This document shows positions 28,899 through 51,886 of a stretch of DNA of 51,886 nucleotides, in pieces; position 1 is the stretch's first letter, and every line of letters starts with the position of its first letter. Made by a program: the position numbers and the translations under genes. This DNA comes from Saccoglossus kowalevskii (lineage: Eukaryota > Hemichordata > Enteropneusta > Harrimaniidae): the NCBI RefSeq assembly GCF_000003605.2, contig NW_003122912.1, positions 524,765 through 576,650 of the forward strand, read 5' to 3'. The notes beneath the pieces are model-generated. The model saw only the letters and a list, made by a program, of their open reading frames with translations. It did no database searches and was not told the DNA's origin.

Positions 28899-29505
28899 TC
28901 GGTAGTTATAGACCCAGTGCGCGTACAACGGCAGTTATAGACCCAGTGCGCGTACATCGGCAGTTATAGACCTAGTGCACGTACACCGGCAGTTATAGAC
29001 CCAGTGCGCGTACAATGGCAGTTATAGACCCAGTGCGCGTACGTCGGCAGTTATAGACCCAGTGCGCGTACGTCGGCAGTTATAGACCCAGTGCGCGTAC
29101 ATCGGCAGTTATAGACCCAGTGCGCGTACATCAGCAGTTATACACCCAGTGCGCGTACATCGGCAGTTATAGACCCAGTGCGCGTACATCGGCAGTTATA
29201 TCCCCAGTGCGCTTACATCGGCAGTTATAGACCCAGTGCGCGTACATTGGCAGTTATAGACCCAGTGCGCGTACATCGGCAGTTATAGACCCAGTGCGCG
29301 TACATCGACAGTTATACACCCAGTGTGCGTACATCGGCAGTTATAGACCCAGTACGCGTACATCGACAGTTAGAGACCCAGTGCGCGTACATCGGCAGTT
29401 ATAGACCCAGTACGCGTACATTGGCAGTTATAGACCCAGTTTGCGTATATCGGCAGTTATAGACCCAGTGCGCGTACATCAGCAGTTATAGACCCAGTGC
29501 GCGTT
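28899..29505 (+). repeat. 29-bp minisatellite, about 21 units
   Basis: Tandem copies of a 29-base unit containing GGCAGTTATAGACCCAGTGC followed by GCGTACATC. Most copies differ at zero to three positions, so the array is young or homogenised. It lacks CRISPR architecture, since there are no unique spacers between the copies. It lies about 1.15 kb to the left of the palindrome array at 30654. Confidence 0.97.
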
Positions 29506-29941: not shown

Positions 29942-30653
29942 GGCACGACGACTGTGGCTTTTTAACATTTTTTTACCGAAAAATTGGGGTGTGGAGAAAT
30001 TATTTGTTCAAAAAAACTAGTGCAAAGGTAAATTTTGCCATACTCTATGACATTATCCGGCAACCCTTAACAGGACGAGAAACAGTTCCCAGTTTTCGAA
30101 AAACATGGTTTTTACATTTTTTGATCAGAAAATTTAACAAAATGTATTGGAAATGAAGATAATTTTACTTTTTATGATGATCGAATATAGAAAAGTATTA
30201 TTGTATGTCACAAGTGTGCCTAAAGTGCCTGTGAAATAGTCCACGACTACAAAAACCATCAATGTATACGTTACTATATATCACTTGAAAAAAAATTCTT
30301 TGATCTTAGTATGGCAGCAACAGTAAGAAATTGTTTATTTCATTAAAAATATATATACATAAAAAAGATATTTCACAGAACACTTTTGTACAACAAAAAT
30401 GAATGATATGAGACAAACAGTATAGTTTTATGGACAGAAAATATGTTATGAAACTTTCTAACCTACAAATATCCAGTTTACCATATGTAATTTCACTATA
30501 ATTAACAGATGCATATTGAAATAGAAAATATTTGGGTAAAATATACCATCGTTTGGATAGTCGAGAAACTTTAGATTTTGATCCTCATATTACAATTCAA
30601 TATCAGCAACTGCTAAGCTCTCAGAAGTGCCAAAGGGCTCTCCAGACAAAGAG
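29942..30653. other. AT-rich DNA outside the left palindrome array
   Basis: No gene seen. The outer end of the proposed 20-kb unit might lie here. A weak similarity exists between AGAAACAGTTCC near 30080 and the reverse complement of sequence near 51167, but it is too short to be called a terminal repeat. Confidence 0.4.
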
Positions 30654-30972
30654 TGTCAGAAATTTCCGACAACACTGCTATATTGAGATGTCAGAAATTT
30701 CCGACAACACTGTTATAATGAGATGTCAGAAATTTCCGACAACAGTACCAATGTGAAATGTCAGAAATTTCTGACAACACTGTTATATTGAGATGTCAGA
30801 AATTTCCGACAACAGTACCAATGTAAAATGTCAGAAATTTCCGACAACACTGTTATGTTGAGATGTCAGAAATTTCCGAAAACAGTACCAATGTGAAATG
30901 TCAGAAATTTCCGACAACACTGTTGAGATGTCAGAAATTTTCGACAACAGTACTAAATTTCTGATAACACTG
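30654..30972. repeat. Left tandem array, 35-bp units with palindromic core
   Basis: Nine full and one partial unit. Each holds TGTCAGAAATTTCCGACA, an 18-base inverted repeat with one mismatched pair; the fourth copy, ending TTTCTGACA, is perfectly palindromic. Two spacer types largely alternate, ACACTGTTATATTGAGA and ACAGTACCAATGTGAAA, giving a 70-base higher-order period. The array starts about 570 bases beyond the stop codon of the minus-strand DUF7869 gene. It may be a dimer-binding site cluster or part of that gene's 3' UTR. Confidence 0.95.
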
Positions 30973-31081
30973 AGAATGACCATGACAAAATCTTGGTAAG
31001 AACTGTCCTCACTTCTATTAAAATGTGCATTTTAGTGCAAACAAATAAATGTTTTCTACATGTAGCAACTAAAAAAAAAAG

Positions 31082-31087
31082 TTTAAT
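31082..31087 (-). terminator. Possible polyadenylation signal of the DUF7869 gene
   Basis: ATTAAA on the minus strand, about 460 bases beyond the stop codon and before the left palindrome array. A canonical AATAAA on this strand lies only at 30339-30334, beyond the array, so the 3' end may be at either site. Confidence 0.25.
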
Positions 31088-31542
31088 ACCTCTATCCAAT
31101 TTACAGAAAATGATAATGAAATTTGTCAAGAGAAAATTAGCAAATTAAAATATTTCTCAAGAACATTACAGTCGACACTGTATGAAGATGGGCCACATCC
31201 AATGAAGATTTAAACATTTACTACAATACAACAAGTTCGATAACAGACCCAAAAATTCTACACAGATTCACAAGGATATGCCGTTCGACTCCAACCATAA
31301 CTGTCATTACAGTACACATTTTTTGGGTTTCAATTTAGATCATACAGAGTTGCATTCAGTTCAAGTTTAAAACTCTGGTTTACCAGCATTTTGACTTGCA
31401 ATTAGTTGTGGGTAAATGCTAACACAAATTAGCCACTTTCACTACTGTCAACTTAAAATAAAAGAACCTATCAAAGATAATGTCACCCACTGAATAACCT
31501 TAAGAAGTCCCGTCTCAGATTTCTGCACATATTTTCATTACT

Positions 31543-34500
31543 TCAGTCACTGTCACTGTTGAGAAAAAAGTAAACGATAAACAAAAAAGGAATTGCATTT
31601 AAAAGACTAATTTGATAATCATTTCTCAAAAGCTGAAAAATCGCTTTATTTAATTACCTATTATGATAGAACACAGTTCATTCCAAAACTGAAACCACAA
31701 ACTTTTTACAATGCAACTGTGCAAAACAGCCTACATTTTACATTACTGTTTATACCAGAATATTTTTGTGTGTTTTCTTATATTGCAAGAAATTGACACA
31801 AATTGCCTTATTTCTAGATAACTATATTGATATTTTAAATATACTGAATACAGTTAGTAAAAATATTGCCTGTATTAATATACGATTAATATAAAAACTA
31901 ACCTGGCATTGAATTTGTCCAGCTCAGCATACTTTTTCTTAAGATTTTCTGAAGTGCCTTTCTTTAATTTGTTTGATTTAGTGAACGCAAAATCCCATAA
32001 AATACAAGACTCTACTTCAACTTCATCCTCCCATGCATTTCTATTTGCTCCAACCCCATGGTATGCTGATTTCCAAACACCTGTGTATGTCCCAACAAAC
32101 CAATGTATTTTCAGTTTGCTGTCTGTCCTTGCAATGACTTGAGCTATCTGTGGCCTAGCATCATTATCAGGTGCCCAAACAGCAACCAGCATACCATCTT
32201 TAACTGAAATGAAGTCATCCATCTCCTGTACTTCAGGAACAACCTTCTTTCCTTGATTTCCAATAATGATCTAAATACGGTATACAAAAATAAAATTTTT
32301 GTCATTTTTTAAAAAGTAACCAACATCCACTCTAATAAAGGGATGTAACAAGTGAAAATAATAGATATTTGACTTTTCAAACTTAATGTGATTCTATGTA
32401 CCATCAGTATGGCACTTACTGGATTACATGCACGGTTCAGATTCTGTTCAATTCTTCGTATATTTTCAGGCATTGCATCCAAATCTTCAGAATTTTGCCT
32501 TAACTGTTGTTTGGCCTCTGCTGCCTCTACTAAATCATGAAGCTGCCACCTTTCAGGAACATCTACGGGAGTCTGAAAATGACAGTCACAATAAAAAAAC
32601 TTGCAAGTTATGAAAAATCAAACATTATAATGTTTAATAGTAAATTAACAATTAAAAATAGGCACATGGGCCTGTCACTCATCGGTGATTATAACTTTAC
32701 CGTCTTGGGAAGTTAATTTTACCCCCAGGTGCAAATGTTTCTAAACTTTTTTGGGAGCAAGATGCTAGTAAAATAAGCAAATTTACAATAAACTTTGATT
32801 GTTTATGTTTTTATTAGCGCATTATTGCAATGTAACTATATATTTATGTTGATTTTGTTTTCACATTAACTTTACACACATTATCTATGATGTCAATCAT
32901 ACATTATTATGACCAATGCATTTGCTAAATTAGACTGTTCATGTTTTTTTCACACTGTCATCCAATTTTGTTTCGTCGTCACGACCGAGTGTCCAAGCGT
33001 CATGGTACAGTGTCGTTTCAGAGGCCTGGAAAGAACACTTTGCTAAAAACTGTAATTAGTGACTGACCAGATGTATAAATGCACATAGTTTGGTCAAAAG
33101 TCCAAGTATGTAAAACTCCCTTTTACACAAACGTTCCAGTGCGACCATGGATCCATAGAGAGAACATATAGGATTGTGGGTGTCAAGTGTTGCAATGCAG
33201 TGTACATGCGCGATGTCAAGTACAAATGGAACACCCGGTACTTACTTTTTCTAAATCCTTTATATTACTCATGAAATCTTTCCAAGATTGTACAGCATGA
33301 GATGGCATTCTGTGAACAAAACCATTTGGAATGGATCTTTCCAGGGCTTCAACATCTAATTTCATTAAACTTGGTACTACCCATTCTGGGGGGTCATCTA
33401 TACATGGAGTACTCTAATATGAAAACATACACAGAAAGAACATTAGCTTTGCTAAATAAAGTTTAAAATTTTGTAACTGGGACTCATCTTGCAGTCACGC
33501 TAGTGCAAACCCTGAGCTTATCACAATCACACCTACACCTCCCAAACCTCCAATAATATGTGCCAACACATTTCTGTAGGTGTGACTGTGTTAAAATTAA
33601 AAAAAAAATGCAGGTAACAGCACCTGGTGTTCTCGCCAGAAACAGGACACTGTGTAATCAATAAATTACTTATCAGTCTGATGGACTGAGGAGATAAAAA
33701 TAAATTATTTCTAACTTACTTTGAAACATATTAGGCCTGGAACATCATCTTCACTAGTACACTGAGGTTCCCATGGGTCTGATGACCATAATCTATAATG
33801 CATGTATGTTTTCTGGTCAACTTTTCTGAATCGAAAGTTATGTGGCTTTGAATGTCCATTAAAATTACCATATAGATGTGGTATCAGCCATTCTTTTATA
33901 TTTAGAAGTGGCCCCAATACCGCCACATTGATGGCAGGTGTATAGGCATTCTTGATAATACTTATCAAATCTGTAAATATACAATAATATTAGCATTACA
34001 TGGATAACACACATTTACAGTCACAAATGAAACAGAAGAAGCAATCTGTTGGGATTTAACAAATAATAAAGACATTAGCAAACACTGTTCATTACAATCT
34101 AAATATGTAAAGTTTTTCAAAATGAATGTGTACCTAGATTTTACTATCAGTACATATGTTTTTGAATATTTTTTATCTACATGTATTGCTTGCACAACGT
34201 ACCTTCAACTGTATATGCATTATCTTTCCTGAGGCCTGTTGATATTTTAGAAAACATCTGATCAACATTTTCATGGGTATGACCAACCGGTAAAAAGTTG
34301 ACATACACCTTCAGAAGAAAAACAGTAAATTGGAACTGTAACAATCATGTTTTATGTGCTGCATAGTTTTTATCTGATCTGATACAATTACAAATCTCAA
34401 AGATAAGTACAATACCAGAGATACTAGTAATTGAATTATGTGCTGTTCCTGTCTTGATAACTTAGAACCGCTTTCTAGGCTTCAAGCTAATGTAATATCA

Positions 34501-37500
34501 GCACTCTCCCAATATTCAGGAACTTACACGTTAAAATATTAACAACAGAAAAATAGTAATGTAACGGGGAGATCAAGCTATTTATTCAGAGTCCATGGTA
34601 AGTGCAAATCATAACCTACAATACTAAATATGCGAATAGGAAGTGAAGAAACATTGTATTTACCCATTTACTTCATCATAAAATATGAAAAAGATCAGGG
34701 TCCCTATAAAATATCACATGGTTTGTAGATGTTGTTCTACTGGTTGAAATAGGATATCTTTTCAGTAATAACTTGAATAAATACTTACCTCTTCAAATAT
34801 ATCTAGTTCCACTAATAATGACATGAAGCTGAGAACATAACGGTTTTTGTTTTCACGGAAACAGTTATCTAGTTGGAGATACAGTACTTTGGCAAGATGA
34901 TTTTTGGCAGCAACTAGCACTTCTAACAGAACATTTAATGTTAAGTTGGAGTCATGTGGCACTTGATTAAAGTCAATATATACATATGGCAACTTCCCAG
35001 ATGTCACACCTGTATGCACAATATTTCCTTGATGTTTGGGGTAAAAAAAACATTAAATGTTAGTACTAACATAGATATTCGCAAGATAAACTTGTAATGT
35101 AGTTCCTCTTACTCAATGGAAGTAGTATTTTAACTACTGTAAATATTGTACTCTACTCTTTAGTGAATGTTATGTCTCCACAAGTTATTTCAGTAAAATT
35201 TATAGTTCATCGAATGTTATGCAGGAGTACTGTAACTGATTATCTGTACAATTATATTTCCCAATCACAGCAGCTAAACAGTCAGTACAAAACAAACAAT
35301 ACCTGTAACATGTGACCTAAGTCTATGTAAATTAGAGGTTCCCTTGTCTTCTTTAATCAGATGTGGTAAATCAGTTTTATTTTGATCCATGCCATCTTGT
35401 ATAATAGTCAGTATTTCGTCTGGCTCCTTCTCGGCTTTCTCTCTATGGTAATGGAATCGTTTACGCTCTTTTCTAGAAAGCATAAAGAGGATAAAGTAAG
35501 TGACTAACTTGAACTAAACCAACTCCACAATATGACAAAAAATGTGAATTAAAAAAACAACATCGATTCATAAAAATAAGTGCAGTCCCGATGATGCATT
35601 GTCAAACAGTCTGCCTTCTGCACATGCATACTTGCTAGACTCTCATAACATATTGAAGTTGTATTTTAATTTTTGTTAAAAACTAATCATTTTTTCTTTT
35701 CAAAAACATATGTATATATATTTTACTATACTTCATACAGTACAACGCGTGAAAACAGTAAATTTTAAAAAAGAGTTCTCGGCTACTTAGGGAGTCCCAA
35801 ATAAACATGGTAAATCCAGACGACTACATACAGCCAAAACAAAGTCAGCTTGGACTTTCAGTTGTGGGACACGACAAAATAAACGCTGCCGATGATACAT
35901 TTCGAGAATAAACGCAATCAAAGGCGCCGACCACGCACGTTGGAAATAAATAATAATTTTATTCAACACGAAAATCCACTACAGAGAATAATTTTATGGT
36001 TGTAAAACAAATAACAGAAATAACACTTCACGCAACTAATATCACAAATAACACAGTTTATTTTTCAAATTTTGACAAATTTCACTTTTTAATTTTTTAT
36101 GGCATTGTATGAACATCTGTATTCTGTAAAAATTTGAAATTAAAATTATTAGTGGAACTCTGTTAAATTTGCATCAAAAAATTAATAAGTGAATGCATGT
36201 GGCAGTGTTGTTGTTTTAATTGGCTCATTTGCATAAATAGACATAACCGGTTGCCTATCTACAGTTGACTGACAGGGCATATGCAAATTACTGATCAGGG
36301 GTCAAACTCATCTAATACCATAAGCTAATGTTATTGTTTAGGACAAAGCAAAATTGAAGTACAGTTCACTCCAAGAGAACACGTTGCGACATGAAGTAAC
36401 ACCTGCCTTTTCACTCTGCAAACGCACACACAAGCACTATTTCCGTATATTGAATACGTTGGCAAAGAAAAAATACCAAAAGGAACAAGTTTAAATCATG
36501 TTTGTATTAACACAACACGAAAGCAGTTTCACAGTGAATACGAGTAATTACATTACGTGAGCATGATTACTAAAAACTGTGGCGTGATTGAAGGAGGCTG
36601 ATGTTCTATTTATTTCCAATACATGTGGTTGGCGACTTTGATTGCGTTTATTTTTTAAATGTATCATAGGCTGAGTTTGTTTTGTTCTGTCTTGCAACTG
36701 AAAGTCCAAGCTAACTTTGTTTTGGCTGTAATGTGCTTTTGCCAAGTTTTTTCTGTCTTACCACACCATTTTTTGTTAGTTAATGCTTTAAATGTGCAAC
36801 CAGACTCCCCAGGCCAATGTTAGTGAGCTACTCACTGTTGCATCTTGGGATTTAATTTGAACTAAGTCAAATAACTTAGCCATTTTTCAGGCAAAACCCA
36901 CAGATGATTTCCTGGATTTCTCACAAATTGTGCACATGTTGGATTTAAGTTAAGGGTCAAATTAACCTACATAAGTTTACAAAAAGGTTTCAACTAAATA
37001 TAAAACATAATAAGCCACAAAAAAAATCACCAAAAATTCAACGTCTGTCATAACATTGAAAATAAAGTTTTTATTTATGCGACAACCACTATGCTACCAG
37101 TGACTGGTAATTCTTTGATCCTGATCTGTGTGATTGACATGCCTATTGTCTGTACATGTGCGACTAATTTCTCTAAAAGGTGTAGTCTTTAATGTATAGG
37201 GTGAACATTTTAAGCGATAACATTTTGAATACCTACAAAGCGAATGTGAAAGCAACTGCTTCAAAGAAGAAGTCAGAAAATTAGAAATAAACAAATCCTC
37301 ATCTTTATTGTTTTTTACCTACCATACCTTTATACAAATCTACCAATCCAGCAATAAAGGAATACAAATACTTACTCAACTTGATGGTTATGTAGAATTA
37401 CCAATGCTCTAATTCTGTTTCTCTCCACAGCTGACTTTGCCTTCTGATACTGTTCATCTAATTGTACACATGTGCTACACGCTACAAACTCATTACCCTA

Positions 37501-40009
37501 CACAAAGAAAAATCAATGCATATAACAAATCAAATTACCGGTACCAATTAAGAAAATATGTAATTTAACTCTGGAAAAATATCATGTATAAATTTATTAT
37601 GTATAATTTATGTACATATTAAGGTGAACCACTTGAAGAAACGGGTCCAACTACATGTACAAAACTGTGTTAATGTGTTTTTATGGTGAATAAAAAAAAT
37701 AAACATGTACGTACAGGGTGACAAATAGCTACCCACATACACACACATTCTCACTGAATAACGTAAAAATGACTAATTTCCACTGGGTTTTGGAAAATTT
37801 ACCAGTCTGGTAAAATTTGTGGTTTGTTCAGTTAAACATTAAAGAATTCTTCACACAGTTTTATTTAATTAAGGTATAGATGCAGGCTCTATTATTATCC
37901 AAACAGTCTTGGCTATAGACTGTTAAAATTTTACATCAATGTGAATAGTGGAACATACTCAAAAAAAACAATTTTAAAATATAGAAAACAGGTACAAACA
38001 TTCTCTCTTTTGAATGCTTAGCAAGATTTAGCAAGGCTGTACATAAATAATAAAAAAGAAACATGGCGAAAGAAAAAGTAATGACAGGATCTTCATATTA
38101 TGTATTATTTAACTTTTTACAAAACAATAATAGGTTTAAACACAGTCCCTCTGGTTTAAGTTTGGAACTGTTACAGCCATTTTAATTATGAGCATGAACA
38201 AACTTCTTACTGAGCGAATGTTTATGCAGATTAGCCATTATCTCTACTTGTGTTTTTCAGTTTACCATGGAAGTTCAAATATAAATACATGTAGCTCTCA
38301 CAATTCTTGTTTATTCCAAGTGAAACCTTAACACAACGTTTATTAGTTCAGGTGTATAGATAGTATGTTTTGTTTTCATATTACAAAGTTGTCAAGCAGG
38401 ATGTGTGCCGTATATGTTCAATCCCGGTCAGTATTTCACACTTCGAATGTCATTGTCCGATAATACAAAGCTTTTAAAAATAAGCCCAGACGTCCTTTTG
38501 TTTGTAAATACATCGTCGAATAGTGTGTCAATTTTGCAATCAGTCAAATGTAGCAGGCAAAATTAACCAACATCGAATGAAAGGCTATGAAAAAAAATCT
38601 CAGATAACCAACTCTAAGAAAACCATTTGGATTGGTTGTATGGGGCACCGCCAGCTGGCATCGCTGTCGCTGGGTGCATATGATAGAGGGAAGTTGTGCA
38701 ACCAAATTTGCCAAGTTCGCAGTTTTTCGCCGATAACAAAATAACTAAGGCAAAAACTCACGGTTTTCAGCATTTTTGTAATAAAGACATTATTCTCTAT
38801 TAATAATCCGCCCAAAACAGTAAAATTTATATTAATTCTTGTGTTTTTTCGACGTTTTTCGAAAAACCTGCGATTAGGCTGCGAAAGTAAACAATCCGGA
38901 GGGGGTGAAACGGAAGAGCATTACCAGGCGACGGACGCTGGGCTCTTTGGCAACGACCGCAAACGTATCGTGTCCAGTCATTGGTTAGTCACATAGAGGT
39001 CAAAATACGCGTTCTATTTTTACGCATTAAATTTGGCTCTTCTCTCTATCATATACACCCAGCGATACCGATACCAGCTGACTGTGGAACATAAATACCC
39101 AAAGATAATAAATACCTTGCCAATGGTGAATTCTGACAAATGTGTTGTCCACATCCTGCAGAAATAATCATAGCAAATGGTGTCTTGTCTGCAAAAACCT
39201 CTCTGCTCGAATTCATTGATCATTCTTTCATACACCATAATTTTTGTCCAGGAACATGGTAAAACAACTTTGGTGTTGTGTGGCATGTAGTCGCCCATTC
39301 TCTCAAAATAAAAGCGCATCCATGCAATTGATGTTGAAGTTTTGTCACGCATGCCACCCCTGTATAAATTGCCGTGCTTCACAGTAATAATATCTCGGCG
39401 GAACAGCTTTTGGCACTCTCTGAATCTGTAGCGTGAGACATTGAACACCATGCACCAACAAAAAATACATACATCCTTTCCATAAATTCGCAAATTAGTT
39501 TCTGCATAAACTTTGCCTTTGATGTATCTTTTGAATGACGAATCTCGAATGACCTTCAAAATGAATTGTTTTTGCTTAGACTCGTTTAAATTTTTCATTT
39601 CCCGCTCGCACTGAAGCACGTCGTTCACGGTTAGATCTCGAATACAATAGTCATTGCAACATGTCTCACATAACACATCAACTGGGTTACGTATTGGCTG
39701 ACTTAGTCGACGGCGCTTCGTGCTATAAGTTTTGTTTGGCGTAGAACTTGCTGCTGGTTCGGTCTGCGGGGAGTTGACAGCAACACCGCGTTCGCTGAAA
39801 GAGTCAATGCTCCTGCTACTGGTGCTTTCATCGAACTGTGTTCTTATACTTGTATCAGAAATAGAACTATCAAATACAGTGTGTATGGATGAGCGAGTAT
39901 TCTCACCTTCAAGTGAATCGTCGAACAAAGTAACCACACTGTTAACAGATTCGTCGAATAATGTTGTAAACGAACACTCGTGGACACTCTCCATGATTCG
40001 ACCATTCAT
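31543..40009 (-). CDS. DUF7869-type protein, DDE/RNase-H-like pattern with SH3/Tudor-like tail, 821 aa
   Basis: Ten exons with GT-AG sites and consistent phases: 40009-39116, 37497-37376, 35472-35303, 35009-34789, 34308-34203, 33970-33720, 33413-33246, 32572-32420, 32270-31903, 31555-31543. The frame is open throughout and ends SDSD-stop. Residues 1-120 are acidic with repeated T-x-FD-x-S words. Residues about 120-298 hold cysteine pairs (CETCCNDYC, VCIFCWC) and an HGN motif. The core carries IIQDGMDQNK (363-372), VYIDFNQVPHDSN, YLQLDNCFRENKNRYV (439-454) and VGHTHENVDQMFSKIS (477-492). I recognise this combination from the DUF7869 family of uncharacterised eukaryotic proteins. D365/D368, D443 and E482/D485 are spaced like a DDE transposase or integrase triad, which is inference. 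Residues about 710-800 resemble an SH3/Tudor-like chromatin-reader module. The start at 40009 has A at -3; an upstream in-frame ATG at 40051 is possible. Confidence 0.85.
35820..35960 (+). repeat. Intronic inverted repeat, left copy
   Basis: Contains CAGCCAAAACAAAGTCAGCT, TGGACTTTCAGTTG, GATGATACATTT, AATAAACGCAATCAAAG and TTGGAAATAAATA. The reverse complement of 36590-36740 matches over about 130 bases at roughly 80 percent by eye. It lies in the second intron of the minus-strand DUF7869 gene. Confidence 0.7.
36590..36740 (-). repeat. Intronic inverted repeat, right copy
   Basis: Partner of 35820-35960 in the opposite orientation, with about 630 bases between. Together they could be the ends of a ~0.9-kb non-coding element or two independent insertions of one repeat family. 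Confidence 0.7.
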
Positions 40010-40658
40010 AGTATTATTGGTGGTGTAAATTAACAATGACACGGGACACACATCAACTATAAAATCGTTGTAACTTTATAATCGGTATATTGGGAGAAAA
40101 ACACCTACACACCAATTTTCCGGTCTACCGATTGCGCGTGTCATGTCAAGCGCCTAACTGGGCGAAAAGATTTTCACGAGGGGTTTTTATGTAGAATGTA
40201 TAAAAATAGGTCAGGTAATTCTGACATGCAATGGGTCATGGATAAATATTTTCAGTGTTTCATTATATATTTATTAATACAAACATACCGATCACAACTG
40301 AATGACCACAAATCACATAATATGATACAACTTTTAACAAAACATCCCCCACACCAGTAAGTGAAACTGTCTTGAAATGTTGGCTCCCAGAATCCTCTAT
40401 GAAGATGAGCAATACAGCTGGTTTAATTCCCGAGATCAAGATCCTGTAATCACACCTTCACTTTTGAACTGTAATTCTACACAGCGGAACTCACAGCTTG
40501 GGTGATTACCTCTTTTGTTTTAAAATGATTAATACCAACCAGCTCTCAGTGTTGGAGTCAGTCAGTTGCTTATCGTGCTTCTTGGTGTTTACGCTCAAGC
40601 GCTCGTACATACGGAACGTTACCAAATTACGCAGTCAACAAACGTGTTTATTTTCAAA
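40010..40658. promoter_or_regulatory. Shared divergent promoter interval
   Basis: The two start codons are 650 bases apart and the genes point away from each other, so this interval must hold both 5' UTRs and promoters. TATAAAAAT at 40199-40207 is a possible TATA box for the plus strand, 450 bases before its ATG. No clear CCAAT or initiator pair was seen. Confidence 0.5.
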
Positions 40659-43600
40659 ATGGGAAGAAGGAGTTGGTGGTTAGAAGAGGACGGACCTAAA
40701 ATATACGTTTATGTGAATGAAGGAAAGAAGAAAGACAGGCTCACCGATAGAAAGACTGGCGTCCCTTATCCTCATGTTGAAAATGTTGAAGTTTATCCAA
40801 AGAAAACCGACGCTGTGAAGGTATTTGTTTCATTAATTTATTTGTCTGTTTTACTTTCACGATCATGATGCAGTTTACCCAATTCCTGTACCGAAATTTA
40901 TCGATGCTGGCATTGCATTATGCCTCGTAATGTCAGCATCAATAAATATCGGCGTAGGAGCTGTGTTAACTGTATCGTGCTTTATGACTGCGTCGAACTT
41001 AAAACTGTGAATAACCCAGAAATTACAGTTACTAGTAGTACCCATTTTGTATGCATGAGTGTAGGATTCATTACTGAAAATATTATACTGGTCCCCTCAA
41101 AAGAGAATGGGAAACTAAACTACACGTATGTAAAAAAAAAAAAAAATACTAGTAGTTGGATCACTATGTTTTCCCCGTCCTTGAGGCATAGTTTAATCCA
41201 AATCCAAACAAATACATTTCAGCCATGAAACTGTGGCAAAGACCCAAAAGTATACCCCTCAAAACCTATGCAAACTTTCTTTATTCTCTGTATTGCTTAG
41301 TCAAAATTATAACTGAAATATCAGATTTTGTGTTGCTGTTGTTGTATATCATAGATGGTTCAGATAAAAGAGAATTTTTTCTATAAGACAGACCGGAAAT
41401 GGAAACAAGACAAAAACAAAAGATTTTTCAAGTTAGCATGGGGGAAATATTGTTGCTAAGTATTATCGTCAGGGAAAGCTATTGTTTAAGCTAGTCTGTG
41501 ATTGGTTGCTGTGATGTAGGCTTGACTTGGGGAATTCCTGGTAACAGACGAAAATAACCATTTTGCTTTGAATTCATGGTTTTTGTACTTTGTCCAATGC
41601 ATTGCATCGCACTATAACGTTTGCATCTGCCGAAATGTCGGTCATTGTTTTTTTTACATTTGCTGCGTACAAGTTTTATTTATGACAGTACCCGATGCCT
41701 GTCTCGTGTGAACTAGAATGATCCAGCATGGCTTTCGATTAAATATTTAGAACATCCTCTTTATGATAATCTCTTCTACACATCTCGTGAATAGTGCAGT
41801 TGGGTTTAGTTAATGGATCAAATTAACCACTTTTGTCAAGAGCTTTTAAGAAAATATAACAGGCAATATAACTTTAAAGTGTTCCAGTTGAAAGTTCACA
41901 TTGGCTGAGCTGGAATGATGCATATAGTCGGTGGATCAGATGTTGTCATGGATTTTATGTAATATACTGTGGAATACTTTATTTTCACTGGAATTAATTT
42001 TCGCTGAAAAGGCTTTTTGGGCGTTTTTTGGAATTTATTTTCACTGATTTTTGATGATATTCTATATTCGCTGGATTTTATTTTCACGGAATCATCCCTT
42101 CAGCGAAAATAGCGAAAATAAATTCCAAGCGAAAATAAAGTATTCTACAGTACCAGAATAATATTATAAAAGTTAGTATTACCAGTAGCTAATATATCAG
42201 CATGCAAACACATAATTTTTATTATTATAAATAAAAAAACAAACATTTTAATAAAACCTGTGGAAGTAATGTTGCATTTACATTGTATGTAGTGTTGTGT
42301 AACTTAATTGTGTCTTAATTACATATAAAAAAGTTTATAAACAATGAAAAAAATGCCTCTTAACATGTAACAAATTGAAATTAAATGTAGAGAGTTGTTT
42401 AATTTCACCTAGAGTACGGCTATAATAGTGTCAATATGTTCTTTTTTTTTGCAGTTTTTTTTTCATTCAGATTCTGGATCTTCCATTACTTGCCCATATG
42501 TATTGGAACGTACATACTTTGAATGGAATAAGTCACAGTATAGCAAAAAGTTTAAAGAAACAAGTAATGTAAGAGAGTTTGTTTCTTTGTTCAGTGAAAT
42601 GCTTTCTACAAATACTGAACGAAATACTGCTCCAGGAAATTCCAGTGACTCTTGTAGTGATGTTGAAGATATGTCTTTATCGAGTGACAGTGCTTCATGT
42701 AGTGAGAGCAGTGATAAGTCATTTGAGAAAGCGTGAGTATTGAATTATTTTCATACCACCATATTTATTCTGTTATCAGTCCCATTATCGTTTACCACGC
42801 CCTTTTGTGACGGCTACTCGGCCTTCCTACAAAAACCATGGTGAATATCATGCAGTTTTCCCATATGTACAAAATCCTGCAAACAACCAATCAAAAAGTC
42901 CCCTTCTAAATGAAGGGACCCAATCACAGAGAGTATTTCTTGTAAATGTTCTTGTTCATGATAGTTCAATGAAATGTTTCTGATGTGCTTTTTACCTTGC
43001 CTGTAGTATATATAGAAGGTAAGGTATGGTAGTGGAAAGATTTTGTCATTTTCCTAATCATTTTATAATTTATATATGTTACAAACAAACATGCAAGGAT
43101 AACCAAATTTGATATTGGAGTACTGCAATGCATAATTAATGAGATATGGTTGCTGATTGGTTTTTCTTCCAGGTGCCATAACTTCAGTGATTTTTATCTG
43201 ATGTCTTTAAAAATTTACTTGACTATGCAGGCATAATTAATAAAATACAGTATAAAGCTTCTCCATTAACAATACATTAAAATATTTATTTCTACTTTTA
43301 ATTTAAGCAATTATATTTCTGGTGTCTATCTGTATCAAGGATTTTGTCAGAATATCAATGGTCTCACCAATTTTTTCATTTAAAACAAATTTTCCATGTT
43401 ATGGTGATTTTTTTTTTATGTGTGTATATAACCATGGTGGTAAAAAAAGACCTCCATGATATAACATACTAAATTTGTGTGTTTATAACATACTAAATTT
43501 TCACCCAAATCTGTGAATAATATGCTAACAGACATTTCATTTTTATAAATTTCTCATTTTTAGGGTCAGAAAGGCCAAACGTCGTATCAGTGACAGTACA

Positions 43601-46600
43601 AAAGATGTTAGTGTGGTGTCACTCAAACGTCAAAAATATAACACAGATATAGAAGAATGCAAACAAGATACACAATCAACTGTTCAACATGCTTTTTGTG
43701 GTATGTGCATATATTTTTATCATTGTAGACCATTGCACTTTAACTACATATCTTTTTCCAGGTAGAGGTGCCTGGTTCTAAATCAAATCTTAAAAAATTC
43801 ATGATCTTTTTTGATTTAATTACACACTCAAAAACAGCATATTTTAAGATATCTTTTCACATAAAAGATCAACTCTGTGCTTACATAATATCAACATAAA
43901 TAAATAAATGCCTCCAACACGATGACATGTCCAATTTTCACAGAGAGTGTTATTTCAGTGAAAGATCTTTATACTCTCTGGTGATCATCACTGCAGTTAC
44001 AACTTACAAATAACATGCTACCTGTTTCATCTTTCTAGTGATTGTCTTAGAATGGCATAAGTAACTGTCTGGTGATATTGATTTAGAATAATAACCTTAT
44101 TTCTACCTTTTTTGCCATTATGTTTTGTAGGTCATTTCCTTATATCTGTCAGAGCACTACAAGGTGGCCAACAAATCAGAGTACCAGATAAAGTATTTTT
44201 AGACAAATTAGTGAAATCCATGGAAAAATACAAAGATGAGTCCTATCAGCCGCTGTGTTTATTGGTAAAAGATGTTTCCTCTGCTGAACAGTTTGATGGA
44301 GCTAAGGTATTATATTTATTGTTGTTGTTTTTTTGAGTGTGTGGAAATACTGATAATATTGTTTCTTTAGATAGTCAAGCCTATATCCGAAAAATACACA
44401 TTAAGACAGACGGGTTTAAACCCCAACTAAATGTATGCAAATTAGTCATCCAACCTCATTCACTGCAACAGGAAACAAAAAGACGAAGGAATGAACCACA
44501 AGCGTTTGTTAGAAATGGCTTTGTTTTGATTACAAAAGTTACTTTTCACTTAGTAGTAGCCCAATTTATCGATATACTTTTTGTAAATAGATAAAACTTA
44601 GTTGCTATGTCATCAAATTTGTTTTTCACCATTCCCAGATCATGATCCCCTCAAACACTAGTTAATGTACTCGTTAATGTACGGGTCTTACCAATTCATA
44701 GAATGAAGATGAACATACGGCCTAGCTGATCGAATTGTGTGGGTTTAGGCATGGAGCTGTAAAAAGACAGCTTCCTGGTTAGGTTGCCTATACTAGCCCA
44801 CATTTAGGTATGCTATAAGCGGACACACATTTTGCTTTGTGAATGTGCCAAAGTTTTTAATTCTGTTTACTCAGTAAACAAAACATTTAGGTAGGCCTAA
44901 GTGAAATGCATGTGTGAAGCTAGCAATACCATTAGGACAGATCTTCTATTGGTTGAAATTTCTTTTTTCAGTTGTTTTAAAAATAAAAAATTAGAGATAT
45001 AAAATAAGATATAAGATCCTAATTTCTGTTATCCTCTCTGGCAGGGCATATCTTATGATCTAGTTTTTGGACTATCATATTTTTATAACTGGTATGAGTG
45101 CAGTATTTGGAAATCTAGGTTGGCTAAGTGGGGAAATCATTAGTGACCTGCATGTTTACTTATATCTTAGCAGATTGATTTTAATACAATGCTCTGCTCT
45201 GCCTTCATAATCTTATTTTTTTTGTTTCCCTACCAATTAGAGAAATGGTTACCAATATGATGTCATAGGTGGACAACACACATTATTGGCAATTCAGGAG
45301 TTAGCCAGAAAATTCCCACAGGATGAAAAGCTCAAAACTGTAAACTGTGTTGTTTATGCTGGCCTCAATAATGAGGAAAGAAAGTGGTTGGGGGTGAGAC
45401 ACAACAAGACAGGAGAATTTCGTCATGCACTTTCTCTGAAAGAAAAGGTAAATTGACAACTATTCCACATTAAGTAATCAAATTGACTTAAATTGGTTCT
45501 CCATTTCTAATAGATGACTGTCTTCTCATCTCATCAAATTCACACACAAAAACTAAAACACTTAGAGGAGGGTTACAAAAAAGCAGGTCATGAACAAATG
45601 TGTGATATTTTGTTGTGCCCACATTACTACCACAATATAATTACAGTTTATACCTAAAAATAACTATGACAGAATTTGGTTTAATGGTAGCACAGTTGAG
45701 ATGAATATGATAGCTTTGAAATTTTGTTAATGGATCATGAAACCAGAGATAAAAGAGAATTAAAATGGGGGGGGGTCTAAAAAATGTTGTGCCACCAACC
45801 TGAGGATTTTTATAGATCGGTGGGCCCACTTACAGATCCAAAAAATAAAACAGATGTTACAATAACACAACATTCTGATTTTGAGGTGGAACCCATGTAT
45901 GCAGGTAACAAATAAGCCTAGCCGCTTCACGGCCTGGTATTGAACCCAGGTCGCAGAGATGCAAAGCGAGTAAGTGTGTCACTGCGCCAACCTACATCCC
46001 CACTTTATAGTAGATAATTATTATTATTTATTATAATTTTTTCAACTTTTGTGGAAATCATTACTTTTGACATTTTCTCTCAAATCTTCATTCGGGCTCC
46101 TTTTATGTATAATATGAAGATAACCTAAAAAAATTATGTTACGGTAGTTTGCTACCACCACTAAGGTTCAGAATTCCATCACAATATTTTATTTATATAT
46201 AATTACTCATTAGAGCAAAAGTGATCAATAAATTACTTTTTTTGTTCAAAGAAAAACTGTCTTGTAATATGCAAAAATGGTATATTTTACAAATATCTCC
46301 ATAGAAAACAGGGGTGAAGCTCTATTTATAATAAAAAAAAAATTTATGTCAGATTTTAGATATGAATTTTTCACCCCATGTCGCCATGCAAAAGGATCCA
46401 ATGGTAGAATGCTCAACATCTGTCATTTTTATAGATTTTTGTAGTAAACTATTTTAACACTTCATGATTTCCACCTTCCTATAGGTTATGATATGTTATG
46501 GAAGAAGAAAAGAAATGCCCAAAGATACAAAAACAACATTGTGGAAAGAGTCGTGCAAAGTTATACTGAATGAGGTATTGTTGCTCTTATGTATATGTAT

Positions 46601-49600
46601 CTTGTGTTTTCACTTACTGACACAAAGTAATTGTTTGTCTTTTGCCGATTTGCGGTGCATTCAATGTTCTGTGGGGTGGCATATTTGTACAGAGCAATTC
46701 TGACTACTGAGTTCAGTATGAAAAAAGCTAAAATATGAAAATGTTGCATCTGTTCACTTAATTTATCCCATTTTCTAAACTGAGTTAGAATTCATAGGTC
46801 TCCTTGAAGCCTATGTCACAACTTTGAAATAAAGGTGCCATAATTTGCCCAGGGGTCTAACTCAAAAAACTGGTCTGGTATGCATGTCTGTTGAAAAGGG
46901 CGTTAAAAAGGCATGTGATACCACAAACCTGGACAAAACAATTACCACTCAATGCATTTAGGGTATGTATTTTACCCATTGTAACAAGGAAAATGGTATG
47001 GAATTTTTTACTTATTTAGGGTCATTTATGAAACCTCGTTCACAGACATGGGTTTCAGGTGCTCCCACCCGACAGAATAATTTGCTTTATTTTACCAAAT
47101 AACCAACTGTGCATTGTAAGTTGAGCTGTTTTTTTTCAGTTAAGTGTTCACTTTGATATATTAACTATTCATTTGTTTCAGGATAAGAACAGCCAAACTT
47201 TAGACGTTGCATGTGCTTTGGCATCTTATGATGGTTTACTCTATAACAAAATTATGGAACTGTTTGAAAAATATGAAGATGGAGATCTCAAAGAACAAAG
47301 AATTAAAAAGAAAGACCAAGGACACAAGCCAGATATAAAGCCATACAAGTTTAAATACTTAAAGAGTTTAGATGCAGACACAGTGCTGGCATTGGTGTCA
47401 GATGTTGTAGACAAAAACCTGTCATTGACAGCATTTGAAAAAGAGAGCCAAATTCTGACTAAGCTCTCATTAATACAAAGAGCATTCATACAAATGATGG
47501 GAGTAGAAACGTGGAAGGAAGCCATGGAGTTGTTTCCAAAAGAGACACAAAGAGAGAACTTGAGCAGGTTCACAAAGTTACCTTTCAGACCAAATATTCC
47601 TGATACCTTTGTCAGATACTGTCAAAGTATTAGAAAAAGAAATGATAAGGACTCGAATACAGTTCAAGAGTGCCTATATGGTATAGATGGTTCAAAAGGT
47701 ATTGTTTTGCACCATGATGTACTGAAGCTGTCACCTAAGACTTTAAAAGAGAATGGTGTTAAATCAAATGGTTTTGACTGTGTAATAGTGGATGTACCTG
47801 ATGTAAGTATTAATAGTTATCATAAGTTGTTTAAAAATAATACAATGATAGTTTAGATTCATTGAAGTTGTATTGCTTTTTATTTTTGTTAAAAACCGAT
47901 CACTTCCACTTTTCCAAAATTTTATACTACATGCACTGTCACTCATAAAAATAATTTAAAATTATCAGAAGTTCGGGTGCCTCAAAGAGTGTTGTACCGA
48001 GGCTGCAACCTTGCGCTATTACCCCAAACTCAGCTGAAAGGGCATTTTAGTACACTAATTTTTCCAGTAATGTATTGTCTGAGAGGGGTTGTGTTTACAA
48101 GTCAATGTGCGCCACATCAAACAATGCTGGTCATAATTTATTGCTATTACCGAAAAAAAACAAAACATAAAAGATGAGCTGTCCAACATGTACCAGTTTT
48201 TGTTTTTGTTAGCATCTGGAAAGCCCAGGCGTTGAGACAGAGCTCTGTGCCCAGGCAGTTGCTCTTCGCAGAGCTGTGAAAAAAATAAGTAAATGCATGT
48301 GCGGGGGGAGATTAAAATACTGTAAAACATGTCTTTTTAGCTAACATGTTATTTTAGCTAATTTATAATTCAGGTAATTCAAGATGTTGCTAATTTAGAA
48401 TAAAGTACAATATATATCCTAACAATAAGATTGTTGGCAGTTTAGATTCAGTTAATTCATGCATGGAGTCAAATTCGCTAAAATGCATGTAGCTACATTT
48501 GTATTTAAACGTGTTTCAAAGCAGTTAGTAAAATCTGTCTTGTTGTTTCTTATTCAGCCATTGTCAGTTATTACACTTCATTTTTTTCCAGGAATGGCTA
48601 ACCGAGGAAATAAAAGAGTTGGTAATAACTGTAAAAACAATCAACACCAGCATTGACAATTATAGACTTGTCCTGTTATGTGACACCAGTCTGATGACTA
48701 GAATAAAAGGAGAACTTATAAAAACAAATACTTTTACTAAAGTGGAGGAAATATTTTATTATGTAGAAAATACAAGGAAAGGTGAGCCATATATGTTTTA
48801 CCTAATTTGTAAATGAATCCTTCTGTCTATTCTCAGGTCGTATTAAATAATATAGTATTAATGGACTACTTAGATTGTCACCTTGGGGCTGGGGCAAATA
48901 AATATAGTTGTTACTTATAGTTGTTACATTTTCTCTGCAGAACCAACATCAATATTAACAGAGTCTGTCCATGGGGTGGTGATTGCGTACTATGCAGAAA
49001 AATGGAGTCATCACACTTGAACCAGGTCCATGTGGATGAGCCACAACACAATTTTTGGATTGTAAAAGCAGAGTCAGTCATAAAAGATGGCGAGGGGGAT
49101 GTTGTTTCGAAGAAGCAAAAGCCGCAGCAGCTGTACGAAAAAGTCATCAAACTTTGCAGTAGCAAATCAGCATGGATTTTAGATGGGACATGTGGAGCAG
49201 GTGATTAGAAATAAGAAATTACTGTAGAATACTTTATTTTCACTTGAAATTTATTTTCGCTGAAGAGATGATTCCGTGAAAATAAAATCCAGCGAATATA
49301 TTATAATTTCCTGTATTTCACATTCAACTCATCAAAAAATCAATGAAAATAAATTCCATAAAGAACGCCCAAAAAGCCTTTTCAGCAAAAATTAATTCCA
49401 GCGAAAATGAAGTATTTCACAGTATTATAAATTATAAACCACCTTTCAATACAACAAAACGTCTTCCACTTTACTGAAATGATTAGGTGTTTCTGTTGTG
49501 AATAGCCAAAATAACTTACCATTGAGCATGTTTTCCAAAGAGAAGCTCAAATTATCCTTATAGACTGTTTTAGGAGGCATTCCTGGTGACCTTTTTGGTG

Positions 49601-49970
49601 GCTTAAAAGATGAAGCTTTAGCGGAGAATGTTCTAAAGTTGCATGACCAATGTCATCAGACTTGTTCTTATTCGTGTGATTGCATGTGATTGGGTGTTCT
49701 CAGTGCCTGTGGTAACACTGTTATGGTATTCTTTTAAATATTGGATTTTAGATGTGCATTTCAAAAAGTGTGTGCAGTGAAAATTTTAAAAGTTTAAAAT
49801 TTGTCTCATTCTATTATGTAACAGGAACTGGTATAATGGTGGGGCTTCTGCACAGTAGAAATGTTGTTGGAGTCGATATCAACGAAAAATGTGTAAACTA
49901 CTGTAAAGTAAGATGTGATGGAGTTGCAGACTTCCTTGAAGATGACACAGAACAGGACCCACATAATTAG
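40659..49970 (+). CDS. ParB-like domain fused to a degenerate beta-class DNA methyltransferase, ~755 aa
   Basis: Ten exons in matching phases: 40659-40820, 42455-42732, 43564-43700, 44131-44306, 45241-45447, 46485-46574, 47182-47802, 48592-48781, 48941-49200, 49825-49970. Exon 1 starts MGRRSWWLEEDGPKIYVY. Exons 2-3 encode a Ser/Asp-rich stretch with a basic cluster RKAKRR, a possible nuclear signal. Residues about 195-305 match the ParB/sulfiredoxin fold: VPDKVFLDKLVKSMEKY, PLCLLVKD, then YDVIGGQHTLLAIQEL where ParB has GERR or GxHR. The C-terminal half has beta-class methylase order: FDCVIVDVPDEW at the motif IV position (554-557), KPQQLYEKVIKL (motif X-like), then WILDGTCGAGTG and VGVDIN (motifs I and II). 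The catalytic DPPY is DVPD, so catalysis is doubtful. Exon 9 is one base out of phase at the A-run 48998-49002; with one more A the coding total is exactly 756 codons, so an assembly error is likely. Confidence 0.85.
41965..42152 (+). mobile_element. MITE with CTGTGGAATAC termini and TA target sites, copy 1
   Basis: About 188 bases lying in the first intron of the ParB-methylase gene. Ends are imperfect inverted repeats, TACTGTGGAATACTTTATTT and its complement ending GTATTCTACAGTA, flanked by TA. The inner sequence is rich in CACTGGAATT, TTTTCGCTG and complementary words, so it can also fold on itself. The TA flanks suggest a Tc1/mariner-type origin. Confidence 0.8.
45770..46003 (-). repeat. 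tRNA-derived SINE
   Basis: Read on the minus strand it starts GGGGATGTAGGTTGGCGCAG, has an A-box-like TTGGCGCAGTGACAC and a B-box GGGTTCAATACC about 45 bases later, then a non-tRNA body. The order and spacing match RNA polymerase III promoters of tRNA-derived SINEs. It sits in the fifth intron of the ParB-methylase gene in the opposite orientation. The 3' end is approximate. Confidence 0.7.
49220..49424 (-). mobile_element. MITE with CTGTGGAATAC termini and TA target sites, copy 2
   Basis: Reverse-orientation copy of the element at 41965-42152, matching along its length (for example AAAAGGCTTTTTGGGCGTT and GATTTTATTTTCACGGAATC on its own strand) with one internal insertion. It lies in the last intron of the same gene, just after exon 9, and again is flanked by TA. 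Confidence 0.8.
49574..49689 (+). other. Possible alternative last exon of the ParB-methylase gene
   Basis: After TGTTTTAG an open frame in the phase set by exon 9 (one base carried over) reads GIPGDLFGGLKDEALAENVL and then KLHDQCHQTCSYSCDCM before a TGA. Using it would replace the end of motif I, so this isoform could not bind S-adenosylmethionine in the usual way. Composition looks protein-like, but a chance frame or a relic is equally possible. Confidence 0.3.
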
Positions 49971-50029
49971 TGTCATTAACTTGCGTATTGTTATAGACAA
50001 TGCATGTGTCATTTCATGTCAAGATTTTA

Positions 50030-50450
50030 AATTCTCAATTCTTTGTGAATATTTTCGTCATTTCCAACTTCTTGTAAAAAACGCAAGTTTGATTGCTTTG
50101 ATATTAATTTTGATGAATATTTTTGTAAGTTTTAGTAAAAAGTAACATTTTCAACTTCTTGTTGCAAATCGCAAGTCTGATTGCTTTGATATTTAATACA
50201 TATATAGGTACTACTTGTGGATTTTTCTCATTGTTTATTTTGTGATGATATCTTTAATTCTCTTATTTTAGTGAATATTTTTGTAATTTTTGGTTTATTT
50301 TTGATTAAGTTATATTTTTGTTGAAAACAGCAAGTCCCATTGCTTGATACTATACATATTGTTCATTTTCTAATGATATCTTCAGTTCTTTAATTGAAAA
50401 TTATGTACATTGATAACAGCTGAACTATCTCAGCCTACAGGCTGCTTGTA
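50030..50450 (+). repeat. Dispersed repeat (GTCCGTC family), third copy
   Basis: Carries CAACTTCTTGTTGCAAATCG, GATTGCTTTGATATT, TGTGATGATATCTTTAATTC and ends GAACTATCTCAGCCTACAGG. Related to 20103-20535 and 26270-26880. It fills the space between the stop codon of the ParB-methylase gene and the right palindrome array. Confidence 0.6.
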
Positions 50451-50559
50451 ATTGTATTTTCTATTCCCTGTGTTATGGTGATATATTTTACACAGAATGT
50501 TCACTTACATAGACCTGTATTTGATTACAATTGCTTTTTTCAATTTAGTACTAATATTT

Positions 50560-50565
50560 AATAAA
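50560..50565 (+). terminator. Candidate polyadenylation signal of the ParB-methylase gene
   Basis: AATAAA about 590 bases after the stop codon at 49970 and 60 bases before the right palindrome array. Confidence 0.35.
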
Positions 50566-50623
50566 TTGAAATACTTCCTAACGAGAACTAGGTGGTGTGG
50601 TCTTTTTTACTTTCTGAATATGA

Positions 50624-50845
50624 ATGTCAGAAATTTCTGGCAACCTTGGCCTAGATCACAGATGTCAGAAATTGTTGACAACTTTCGGCCAGAGCGCAGA
50701 TGTCAGAAATTGTTGACAGCCTTCGGCCAGAGCACAGGTGTCGGGAAATTTTTGACAACCTTCGGCCAGAGTACAGATGTCAGAAATTTTTTTGACAACC
50801 TTTGGCCAGAACAAAGATGTCAAAAATTTCTTGCAAACTCCCTCA
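50624..50845. repeat. Right tandem array, 38-bp units with the same palindromic core
   Basis: Six diverged units of about 38 bases. Cores read TGTCAGAAATTTCTGGCA, TGTCAGAAATTGTTGACA (twice), TGTCGGGAAATTTTTGACA, TGTCAGAAATTTTTTTGACA and TGTCAAAAATTTCTTGCA. The spacers (for example CCTTCGGCCAGAGCACA) differ from those of the left array. It begins about 650 bases after the stop codon of the ParB-methylase gene. Confidence 0.93.
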
Positions 50846-51287
50846 CACAAAGACTGCAGTAGCATGATAAGTGGTCTTACAAAATTTGTCAGGAGTTCGG
50901 CTTTTGGTGAGCTGTCATTTCACATAGTTTAATTTTGAATTTTATCTTGGCAAATAATCAAAAATTATAAGGTATGATTACAATATTGTGAAAAAGACAC
51001 AAAATTATCGTAAATGTATACAAGTTGGGGCACATTTTATGAAAACTGTTTATTATTGCTAAAATGTTGCAAATATGTGAAAGTTCTCAAAATGTTGTTT
51101 TTTTTTTATTAAAAATAAAGCAAAATGCGCATTTTTCGGAAACTTGAAAATGTTTCTCGGACTGTTTCTACTTTAAATAATTATGTCTCACCGAATTAAC
51201 TTCAAAATGGATTATAGTGGTTTAGGTCACGTAATGTTGTATCACGATTGCTACAGACACAAATATGTTTTTTTTTTATTTTTACAG
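50846..51287. other. Intron or intergenic DNA before the homeobox exons
   Basis: AT-rich, with no exon seen. It ends in a polypyrimidine tract and TTTACAG, the acceptor of the next exon. The outer right end of the proposed 20-kb unit should lie here if that unit is real. Confidence 0.4.
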
Positions 51288-51886
51288 GTAGTTATGTTGG
51301 CAGGAAATCAAGTCGCTATATCTACAGCGAGACACAGTCGGTTTTATTAGAAGTAATATTTACAACTACTACGGAGTATCTAAATCGCGACATGCGCAAG
51401 CGTATCGCCATAATTACCAACTTATCGGAAAAGTCAATTATGGTAAGTGAGAGCATTATGTATGCACCAAAGTATGTTATAATGTAAGCGAACAGTTTCT
51501 TGTTGTTCATTATACAATAATCTATTTTATTCACTTTTCAGAAGTGGTTTCAGAATCGTCGGAGTCAAAAACGGAGGCAAGAACGGAAAAGAGATGCCGT
51601 GTTATATGCTAAGCACCATCAAGCACCAATACAAAAGTTGAAAGAATCGACGACGCGTTTTCCGTCCGTGCGAAGTCGAGGAAAATCAGTGGACACTCGA
51701 CTTGATGTCCTACCAGCAACGCCTTCCCTCCGGGAATATATTGGTGTTCCACAAACCAGTAGTACACCAAGGCATTGTAGTGATACGAAAATACAAAATT
51801 GCAGTACACATTCCAGTGGTATCCTGACAGACGTCTGTCAAAGTAAAATAGAAATATGTAGTACACCTTGTAAAGACGTGTCATCA
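51288..51886 (+). CDS. Divergent homeobox gene, two exons, partial at both ends
   Basis: Exon A 51288-51442 (after TTTACAG, starts in phase 1, ends ATG|GTAAGT) and exon B 51542 to the window edge (after TTTTCAG). Together they encode a homeodomain: RKSSRYIYSETQSVLLEVIF (helix 1), EYLNRDMRKRIAIITNL (helix 2) and SEKSIMKWFQNRRSQKRRQ (helix 3), with canonical W48, F49, Q50, N51 and R53. The loop between helices 1 and 2 is one residue longer than in the standard 60-residue fold, and position 47 is lysine, which is unusual. The intron falls between homeodomain positions 46 and 47, a known site in several homeobox classes. A Ser/Thr-rich tail follows and continues past the window. The protein should bind DNA in the nucleus as a transcription factor; I cannot assign a class. 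Upstream exons are not visible and may lie to the left. Confidence 0.85.

Follow-up and report, generated by a model that had tools for sequence, protein, structure and literature searches.

Evidence for a 21-kb, two-gene DNA transposon with subterminal palindrome arrays in Saccoglossus kowalevskii

We analysed a 51,886-nucleotide stretch of the genome of the hemichordate Saccoglossus kowalevskii (C1554:524765-576650, at the end of its contig), hereafter the window, and searched the 572-Mb assembly of 4830 contigs for relatives of the element that it holds. Two intron-rich genes diverge from a common interval (Table 1). One encodes a protein with the Pfam domain DUF7869; the product of the other resembles ParB weakly in its middle part and ends in a methylase-like domain (Pfam N6_N4_Mtase). 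The start codons, at 40009 (minus strand) and 40659 (plus strand), leave 649 bp in between, and the stops are followed, after 586 and 653 bp respectively, by tandem arrays of a palindrome, TGTCRGAAATTTCYGACA. These distances agree with a preliminary description of this DNA, made from its letters alone, which put the genes about 650 bp apart and the arrays about 0.6 kb beyond each stop. That description also took both genes to be essentially open, which holds for the DUF7869 model but not fully for the methylase-like model, where exon 9 apparently changes frame.

Table 1. Coordinates of the proposed transposon, its parts and its target in the window
Feature	Position	Strand	Remarks
Whole DNA transposon	30069..51166	.	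21,098 bp; inverted repeats at both ends, recurring ends, uninterrupted target at right
Left terminal inverted repeat, AACAGGACGAG...	30069..30104	+	29/36 identical to right end, 35/36 to C3160 copy
Left subterminal array	30654..30956	.	9 copies of TGTCRGAAATTTCYGACA, period 35; starts 585 bp inside left end
DUF7869 gene, putative transposase	31543..40009	-	10 exons, 821 aa, hand-built open model; Pfam DUF7869 E 1.7e-66
DUF7869 exons	39116-40009, 37376-37497, 35303-35472, 34789-35009, 34203-34308, 33720-33970, 33246-33413, 32420-32572, 31903-32270, 31543-31555	-	
NIPBL-like C-terminal exon of DUF7869 gene	31903..32270	-	E 2.2e-10 to 6wge_E 1538-1638; C2261 relative 29% identity
ParB-like / beta-class amino-methylase-like gene	40659..49970	+	10 exons, hand-built model; Pfam N6_N4_Mtase; weak ParB-like PHROGs matches
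Methylase-gene exons	40659-40820, 42455-42732, 43564-43700, 44131-44306, 45241-45447, 46485-46574, 47182-47802, 48592-48781, 48941-49200, 49825-49970	+	
Methylase exon 9	48941..49200	+	Apparent frame change near 49000-49030; two relatives read the homologous stretch in one frame
Secondary insertion, inverted-repeat element	49218..49421 (to 49432 as inverted pair)	.	Partner ~41957-42152; absent in C167 copy
Right subterminal array	50624..50835 (also read as 50624-50829)	.	5 to 6 degenerate copies of same palindrome, period 38; 337 bp inside right end
Right terminal inverted repeat, AACAGTCCGAG... (minus-strand reading)	51131..51166	-	26/36 identical to right end of C2261 element
Target: homeobox-gene unit of large tandem array	51167..51886	+	Homeodomain E 5.8e-11; at least 39 other copies, 98-99% identity

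The two arrays, with units of 35 and 38 bp, had been described as sharing one palindrome not noticed in the rest of the window, and our search bears this out. With up to 3 mismatches allowed, TGTCRGAAATTTCYGACA matches at 13 positions, 9 in the left array and 4 in the right, against an expectation of 0.11 from shuffled sequences; elsewhere in the window it has no match at this threshold. The right array is degenerate, with five copies carrying 1 to 4 mismatches and a sixth discerned by eye. In the assembly as a whole, exact copies of the palindrome number 7, every one of them in the left array; allowing up to 1 mismatch gives 11 places: 9 in the left array, 1 in the right array and 1 in a second copy of the right array on contig C3947.

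The outer boundaries were read from copies elsewhere in the genome. C3947:124037-124779 matches window 50423-51166 at 99.7% identity, and the match ends rightward at 51166; a diverged copy on C167 ends at the same base, so that the right end is found on three contigs with one common boundary. (A small self-contained element was considered for the 744-bp C3947 match and rejected: its leftward limit is merely an assembly gap, C3947:120222-124036.) When reverse complemented, the right end matches the sequence at window 30069, the top-scoring 200-base tile apart from the right end itself, which gives the element the 36-bp terminal inverted repeats expected of a DNA transposon. The left end, 30069-30272, was found again on C3160 at 99% identity, with flanks that diverge directly outside 30069. 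The right-end boundary, the matching inverted repeat and the C3160 boundary together delimit the element to 30069-51166. The preliminary description had proposed a single unit of about 20 kb; one mobile unit stands, but it extends past the arrays to the inverted repeats. The C3160 copy is itself a 204-bp piece of the left end (C3160:1307466-1307669), and its neighbours look by eye like exons of a short-chain dehydrogenase.

The sequence to the right of the element belongs to a homeobox-gene unit that is repeated in a large tandem array. In two of the other units the target was read uninterrupted, the sequence continuing exactly across 51166|51167. Empty sites and outer termini common to copies at other sites, both named beforehand as signs of mobility, are thus present, and copies at unrelated places that break off at one boundary, together with targets still empty, are what a DNA transposon with terminal inverted repeats is expected to leave. 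The view of the window block as a single mobile unit, a DNA transposon, appears largely right. The number of homeobox-unit copies is a lower bound, as 40 of 69 candidates were scored, giving 40 rows that include the window itself. Copies of the unit lie on C3970, C1193, C3844, C3211, C2584 and C4681, often 2.3-2.6 kb apart, and the window contig ends beside or inside the array.

A protein search of the assembly yielded 45 DUF7869 exon matches on 12 contigs and 23 methylase matches on 6, the window contig being included in both counts. The divergent pair recurs on C3194 and C1340; the compared parts are 36-68% identical, and the DUF7869 cores of these two are 68 and 65% identical, respectively, to that of the window. 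Both pairs are bracketed by arrays (36 bp x 15.8 and 33 bp x 15.7 on C3194; 35 bp x 20.3 and 36 bp x 8.6 on C1340), so that the gene pair and the arrays occur together at three non-orthologous places, as the preliminary description had anticipated. The ends of the C1340 element are unread because both of its arrays run into assembly gaps. Methylase matches with no DUF7869 match were found on C167, C1496 and C419. The arrays of C3194 and C1340 are built on a palindrome unlike that of the window: TCGACAATTGTCGA, as against TGTCAGAAATTTCTGACA in the window. Exact copies of TCGACAATTGTCGA occur at 26 places in the assembly, compared with 7 for the control. C3194 holds 20 of them and C1340 5; the remaining one, on C2261, has a DUF7869 exon at a distance of about 0.5 kb. 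A palindrome scattered through the genome apart from the genes had been named as the outcome that would speak against a joint system; instead, all 7 exact window palindromes and all 26 copies of TCGACAATTGTCGA lie in or beside such loci.

An inverted-repeat motif derived from the window and C3194 ends was found at 18 places, compared with 3 for the control. Among the 16 places that were read, 11 begin with AACA, and the right end of C3194, a contig that starts and finishes with these inverted repeats, is one base short at the contig end. A 3.1-kb deletion derivative of the C3194 type, C2261:2996162-2999254, has inverted repeats identical at 32 of 36 positions and ATTG on both flanks. Its left part matches C3194:3-2400 (87-91%), array included, and runs into a 3′ exon of DUF7869 type; its last 194 bp match the right end of C3194 at 98%. 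Single related ends with 5′-AACA termini lie on C1515, C2722, C593, C3902 and C3249, where the protein search matched neither DUF7869 nor the methylase, and are perhaps further families or non-autonomous copies.

The DUF7869 protein is the putative transposase. Three stretches are invariant in all three cores, I-D-x-N-Q, L-Q-L-D-N and V-G-H-T-H-E-N-V-D, and by eye the invariant D, D and H-E-x-V-D resemble a DDD/E core. A DUF7869 profile matched 30 exons in this assembly, whereas a set of 14 control genomes yielded no match. No DUF7869 relative was confirmed in viral contigs or in bacterial or archaeal genomes.

The partner protein resembles beta-class amino DNA methylases. Pfam N6_N4_Mtase matches all three copies (best E 3e-14; E 7.6e-9 for the window), and profile matches were obtained to 1g60 MboIIA, 1eg2 RsrI and 6pbd CcrM. 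Motif IV stands ahead of motif I. In the three aligned copies, the AdoMet (S-adenosylmethionine) motif I is present (DGTCGAGTG, DACCGTG) and the catalytic motif (D/N/S)PP(Y/F/W) is changed, to DVPD, DTPQ and DTPQ. Because of this change, the protein is probably no active methylase of the beta-class kind; its sequence suggests a domain that is probably disabled as a methylase. The middle part matches the ParB and ParB-methylase families of PHROGs weakly (best three E 0.0011-0.0035), and the protein has no Pfam ParB match. A tblastn search of phage sequences returned 64 records with an E-value cutoff of 10; the 20 listed all had E of at least 0.4 and were all annotated as ParB or methylase. A profile search of solved structures with the ParB-like part returned matches at chance level alone, and no methylase relative was confirmed in viral contigs. 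Two introns of the gene carry a pair of inverted, 89-95% complementary short repeat elements, the second of which is the secondary insertion missing from the C167 copy.

Both genes bear the mark of purifying selection. In exons 3, 4 and 6 of the DUF7869 gene, the proportion of synonymous differences (pS) is 0.67-0.91 and that of amino-acid-changing differences (pN) 0.08-0.24; in exon 7 of the methylase-like gene, pS is 0.70-0.83 and pN 0.22-0.40. In each of the six comparisons made for the two genes, pS is the higher value, so both genes, the pseudo-methylase included, have been kept by selection among copies.

Starting from the observed termini, the mobility, the recurrent divergent pair with its arrays and the purifying selection on the compared exons, we consider it likely that the window element belongs to a family of large DNA transposons, 21-26 kb in size, that carry two genes, for a DUF7869 transposase and an accessory ParB-like pseudo-methylase, and arrays bound by an element protein. 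The family has short inverted repeats with 5′-AACA... termini and, in the one readable case, a 4-bp target duplication. In the mechanism that we propose, the DUF7869 protein would act as the transposase, cutting at the inverted repeats and joining the element to its target. The second protein, in which a ParB-like part is combined with a methylase domain that has kept its AdoMet site and lost its catalytic motif, would be an accessory DNA-binding protein. It (or the DUF7869 protein) would bind the palindrome arrays just inside both ends, and this binding might pair the ends, protect the element from silencing, or both. The arrays and their binding protein would drift together, giving each lineage its own palindrome.

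Several of our observations weigh against this explanation. The first group concerns the window copy itself. Target duplications had been named as support in the preliminary description; of the two copies with both ends readable, only the C2261 derivative has one, so that the single duplication known belongs to a relative, and none was seen around the window copy. The left flank of the window copy differs from the sequence that precedes the target in both uninterrupted units that were read. No second full copy or empty allele of this flank, which holds a dispersed repeat, was found in the assembly. Given the unexpected left flank and the missing duplication, the window copy is either rearranged or part of a chimeric contig. 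That the assembly has merged two closely similar elements, taking one end from each, is a possibility to which we assign somewhat less than even weight: the right flank is homeobox-array sequence, the left flank is not, and the contig ends beside or inside that array, but 30069-51166 is free of gaps (the sole run of N in the window is 16505-17278), and both window arrays carry one palindrome whose exact form occurs nowhere else. Exon 9 of the methylase-like gene is, moreover, frameshifted in this copy.

A further group of observations concerns the proteins and their assignment to the ends and arrays. A profile search of solved structures with the DUF7869 protein gave one weak match, to a phage baseplate protein (E 0.029), and no structure supports a DDD/E fold. 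Four of the 16 inverted-repeat motif places that were read (on C2, C2303, C4122 and C2976) have no AACA terminus and may be chance matches. Of the 11 contigs besides that of the window on which the protein search matched DUF7869, only 2 also gave the partner methylase; with 30 DUF7869 exon matches in the profile search, the methylase partner was detected at a minority of DUF7869 loci. It is conceivable, although we would not put it first, that in this same transposon the DUF7869 transposase itself binds the arrays, as part of transpososome assembly, and that the ParB-methylase serves in anti-silencing or as cargo and makes no contact with the palindrome. The many DUF7869 loci with no detected methylase are in keeping with such an arrangement, as is the C2261 derivative, which has the left array but lacks both the right array and the methylase gene. 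However, the loci with arrays read on both sides (window, C3194 and C1340) all hold both genes, and arrays accompanied by DUF7869 only were read on C2261 only.

The arrays themselves provide the remaining points against an address read by an element protein. With up to 2 mismatches, TGTCRGAAATTTCYGACA occurs at 48 places in the assembly, compared with 25 for the control, so about half of the matches to the looser motif are background and the near-exact form alone is specific. Conservation could be measured in five arrays, and two further arrays yielded one spacer pair each. In one of the five, the left array of the window, conservation of the palindrome clearly exceeds that of the spacer: the palindromes are 96% alike and the spacers 70%. 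The palindrome is slightly better conserved in the right arrays of C3194 and C1340 and no better in their left arrays, where the spacers are about as conserved as the palindromes on C3194 and more conserved on C1340. Mobile elements often carry short tandem arrays near their ends, and the left arrays of C3194 and C1340 would suit ordinary minisatellites of the 3′ untranslated region or subterminal region, which no protein recognises and in which hairpin-driven slippage and copying between ends produced the palindrome. We regard this origin as unlikely, since within each of the three elements both arrays carry a common palindrome, yet the spacers look unrelated by eye; the palindromes are mostly spaced 31-40 bp apart (exceptions, 25, 30 and 45-77 bp), and the left array of the window stands against it as well.

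The C-terminal exon of the DUF7869 gene suggests a more far-reaching variant. In human NIPBL, the isoform-A-specific tail follows residue 2683 (PMC5372497). The C-terminal ~100 residues of the DUF7869 protein match human NIPBL, 6wge chain E, at positions 1538-1638 of 1642. We take this chain to end at NIPBL residue 2804, which would place the match at ~2700-2800. If the chain does end there, the match would fall inside the isoform-A-specific tail. From this similarity it would seem that the DUF7869 protein and a host gene have one domain in common. At its fullest, this variant holds that the ParB-methylase is a captured bacterial or phage fusion that has shed its methylase chemistry and acts as a ParB-type loader on parS-like end clusters; that, with the NIPBL-like domain of the DUF7869 transposase, the element marks or pairs its own ends by ParB-like spreading or through cohesin; that the isoform-A tail of NIPBL is a domesticated piece of the element; and that the whole represents a new superfamily of animal DNA transposons. 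We judge this conjunction improbable.

The remaining alternative, a host gene pair at a domesticated locus or spread by segmental duplication, agrees with the few complete copies, the intron-rich genes and the purifying selection but is very improbable, with segmental duplication rejected outright, given the inverted repeats, the exact boundaries at unrelated sites, the deletion derivative with its target duplication and the uninterrupted target; 'domesticated', a word used in the preliminary description, is likewise unsupported for the window copy.

Outside the element, the window holds a 29-bp minisatellite of 21 copies (28896-29504), just beyond the left end in a stretch of higher G+C than its surroundings. 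An open frame at 11480-12397 encodes repeated GKSVFMGMPxF-like units with dibasic sites; it resembles a neuropeptide precursor and has no Pfam match up to E 0.1.

DUF7869 is named in no paper of the literature searched, and its position within a transposon of defined ends suggests a probable role for the domain. Among the listed papers on transposons with ParB or methylase domains, new superfamilies and subterminal palindromes, none was recognised, from its title and the opening of its abstract, as describing the window element, although a named Repbase entry may exist; the element possibly represents a new superfamily. In plants, TnpA binds the subterminal repeats of CACTA elements, which vary between elements (PMC2613891), and the targets of VANC proteins are tandem repeats, which differ from one related element to the next (PMC5735166). 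In this strategy an element evolves a private address that is read by its own protein, and the recurrent pairing of DUF7869 with a conserved pseudo-methylase and lineage-specific arrays would be an animal counterpart of it. The NIPBL similarity, for its part, raises the possibility that a transposon contributed to the human cohesin loader, namely to the tail by which its two main isoforms differ; the sequences would fit a tail derived from a transposon or one captured by a transposon.

Among known systems, Kolobok and piggyBac elements have TTAA as their target duplication, whereas the sole duplication of the window family is ATTG. Polinton (Maverick) elements have long inverted repeats, in contrast to the ~36-bp repeats of the window element, and its two proteins have no Pfam match to a family B polymerase or a retroviral-type integrase; a viral or Polinton element was rejected for want of matching domains in these proteins. 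Academ elements combine an Academ-type transposase with a helicase or XPG nuclease; the two element proteins have no helicase or nuclease Pfam match. The human cohesin loader gene NIPBL is a host gene and not mobile, unlike the DUF7869 gene of the element, and the C-terminus of its isoform A (exon 47) is homologous to the ~100-residue C-terminal domain of the DUF7869 protein. Beta-class amino DNA methylases such as MboIIA, RsrI and CcrM share with the element protein the N6_N4_Mtase domain, AdoMet motif I and the motif order and differ from it in the catalytic motif. As in bacterial ParB-parS systems, what may be a ParB-like domain is encoded next to clustered palindromic sites, but the element gene is eukaryotic, intron-rich and fused to a methylase-like domain, its likeness to phage ParB families is weak, and neither gene encodes a ParA.

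CACTA (En-Spm) elements, such as maize En/Spm and the 20.5-kb Tgmt* of soybean, offer a closer likeness: they are large, their inverted repeats are short, deletion derivatives of them occur, they encode a second DNA-binding protein besides the transposase, and their repeated subterminal motifs change from one related element to another (PMC2613891). The window element, too, has repeats just inside each of its ends, as this group does. However, its termini read AACA and not CACTA, neither protein matches Tnp2 or Transposase_21 in Pfam up to E 1, Tgmt* has a 3-bp duplication compared with 4 bp in the one case of the window family, the motif of the window element is palindromic and repeated in a regular tandem series, and its second protein is ParB-like and methylase-like. 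CACTA membership was rejected because the termini and the transposase domain differ. The VANDAL elements of Arabidopsis, with their VANC anti-silencing proteins, are Mutator-type elements. Their nine-base motif is non-palindromic and lies in introns and upstream regions, and the accessible text of PMC5735166 names no ParB or methylase domain; what they share with the window element is that short tandem motifs are specific to each family and change along with a protein that the element itself encodes (PMC5735166).

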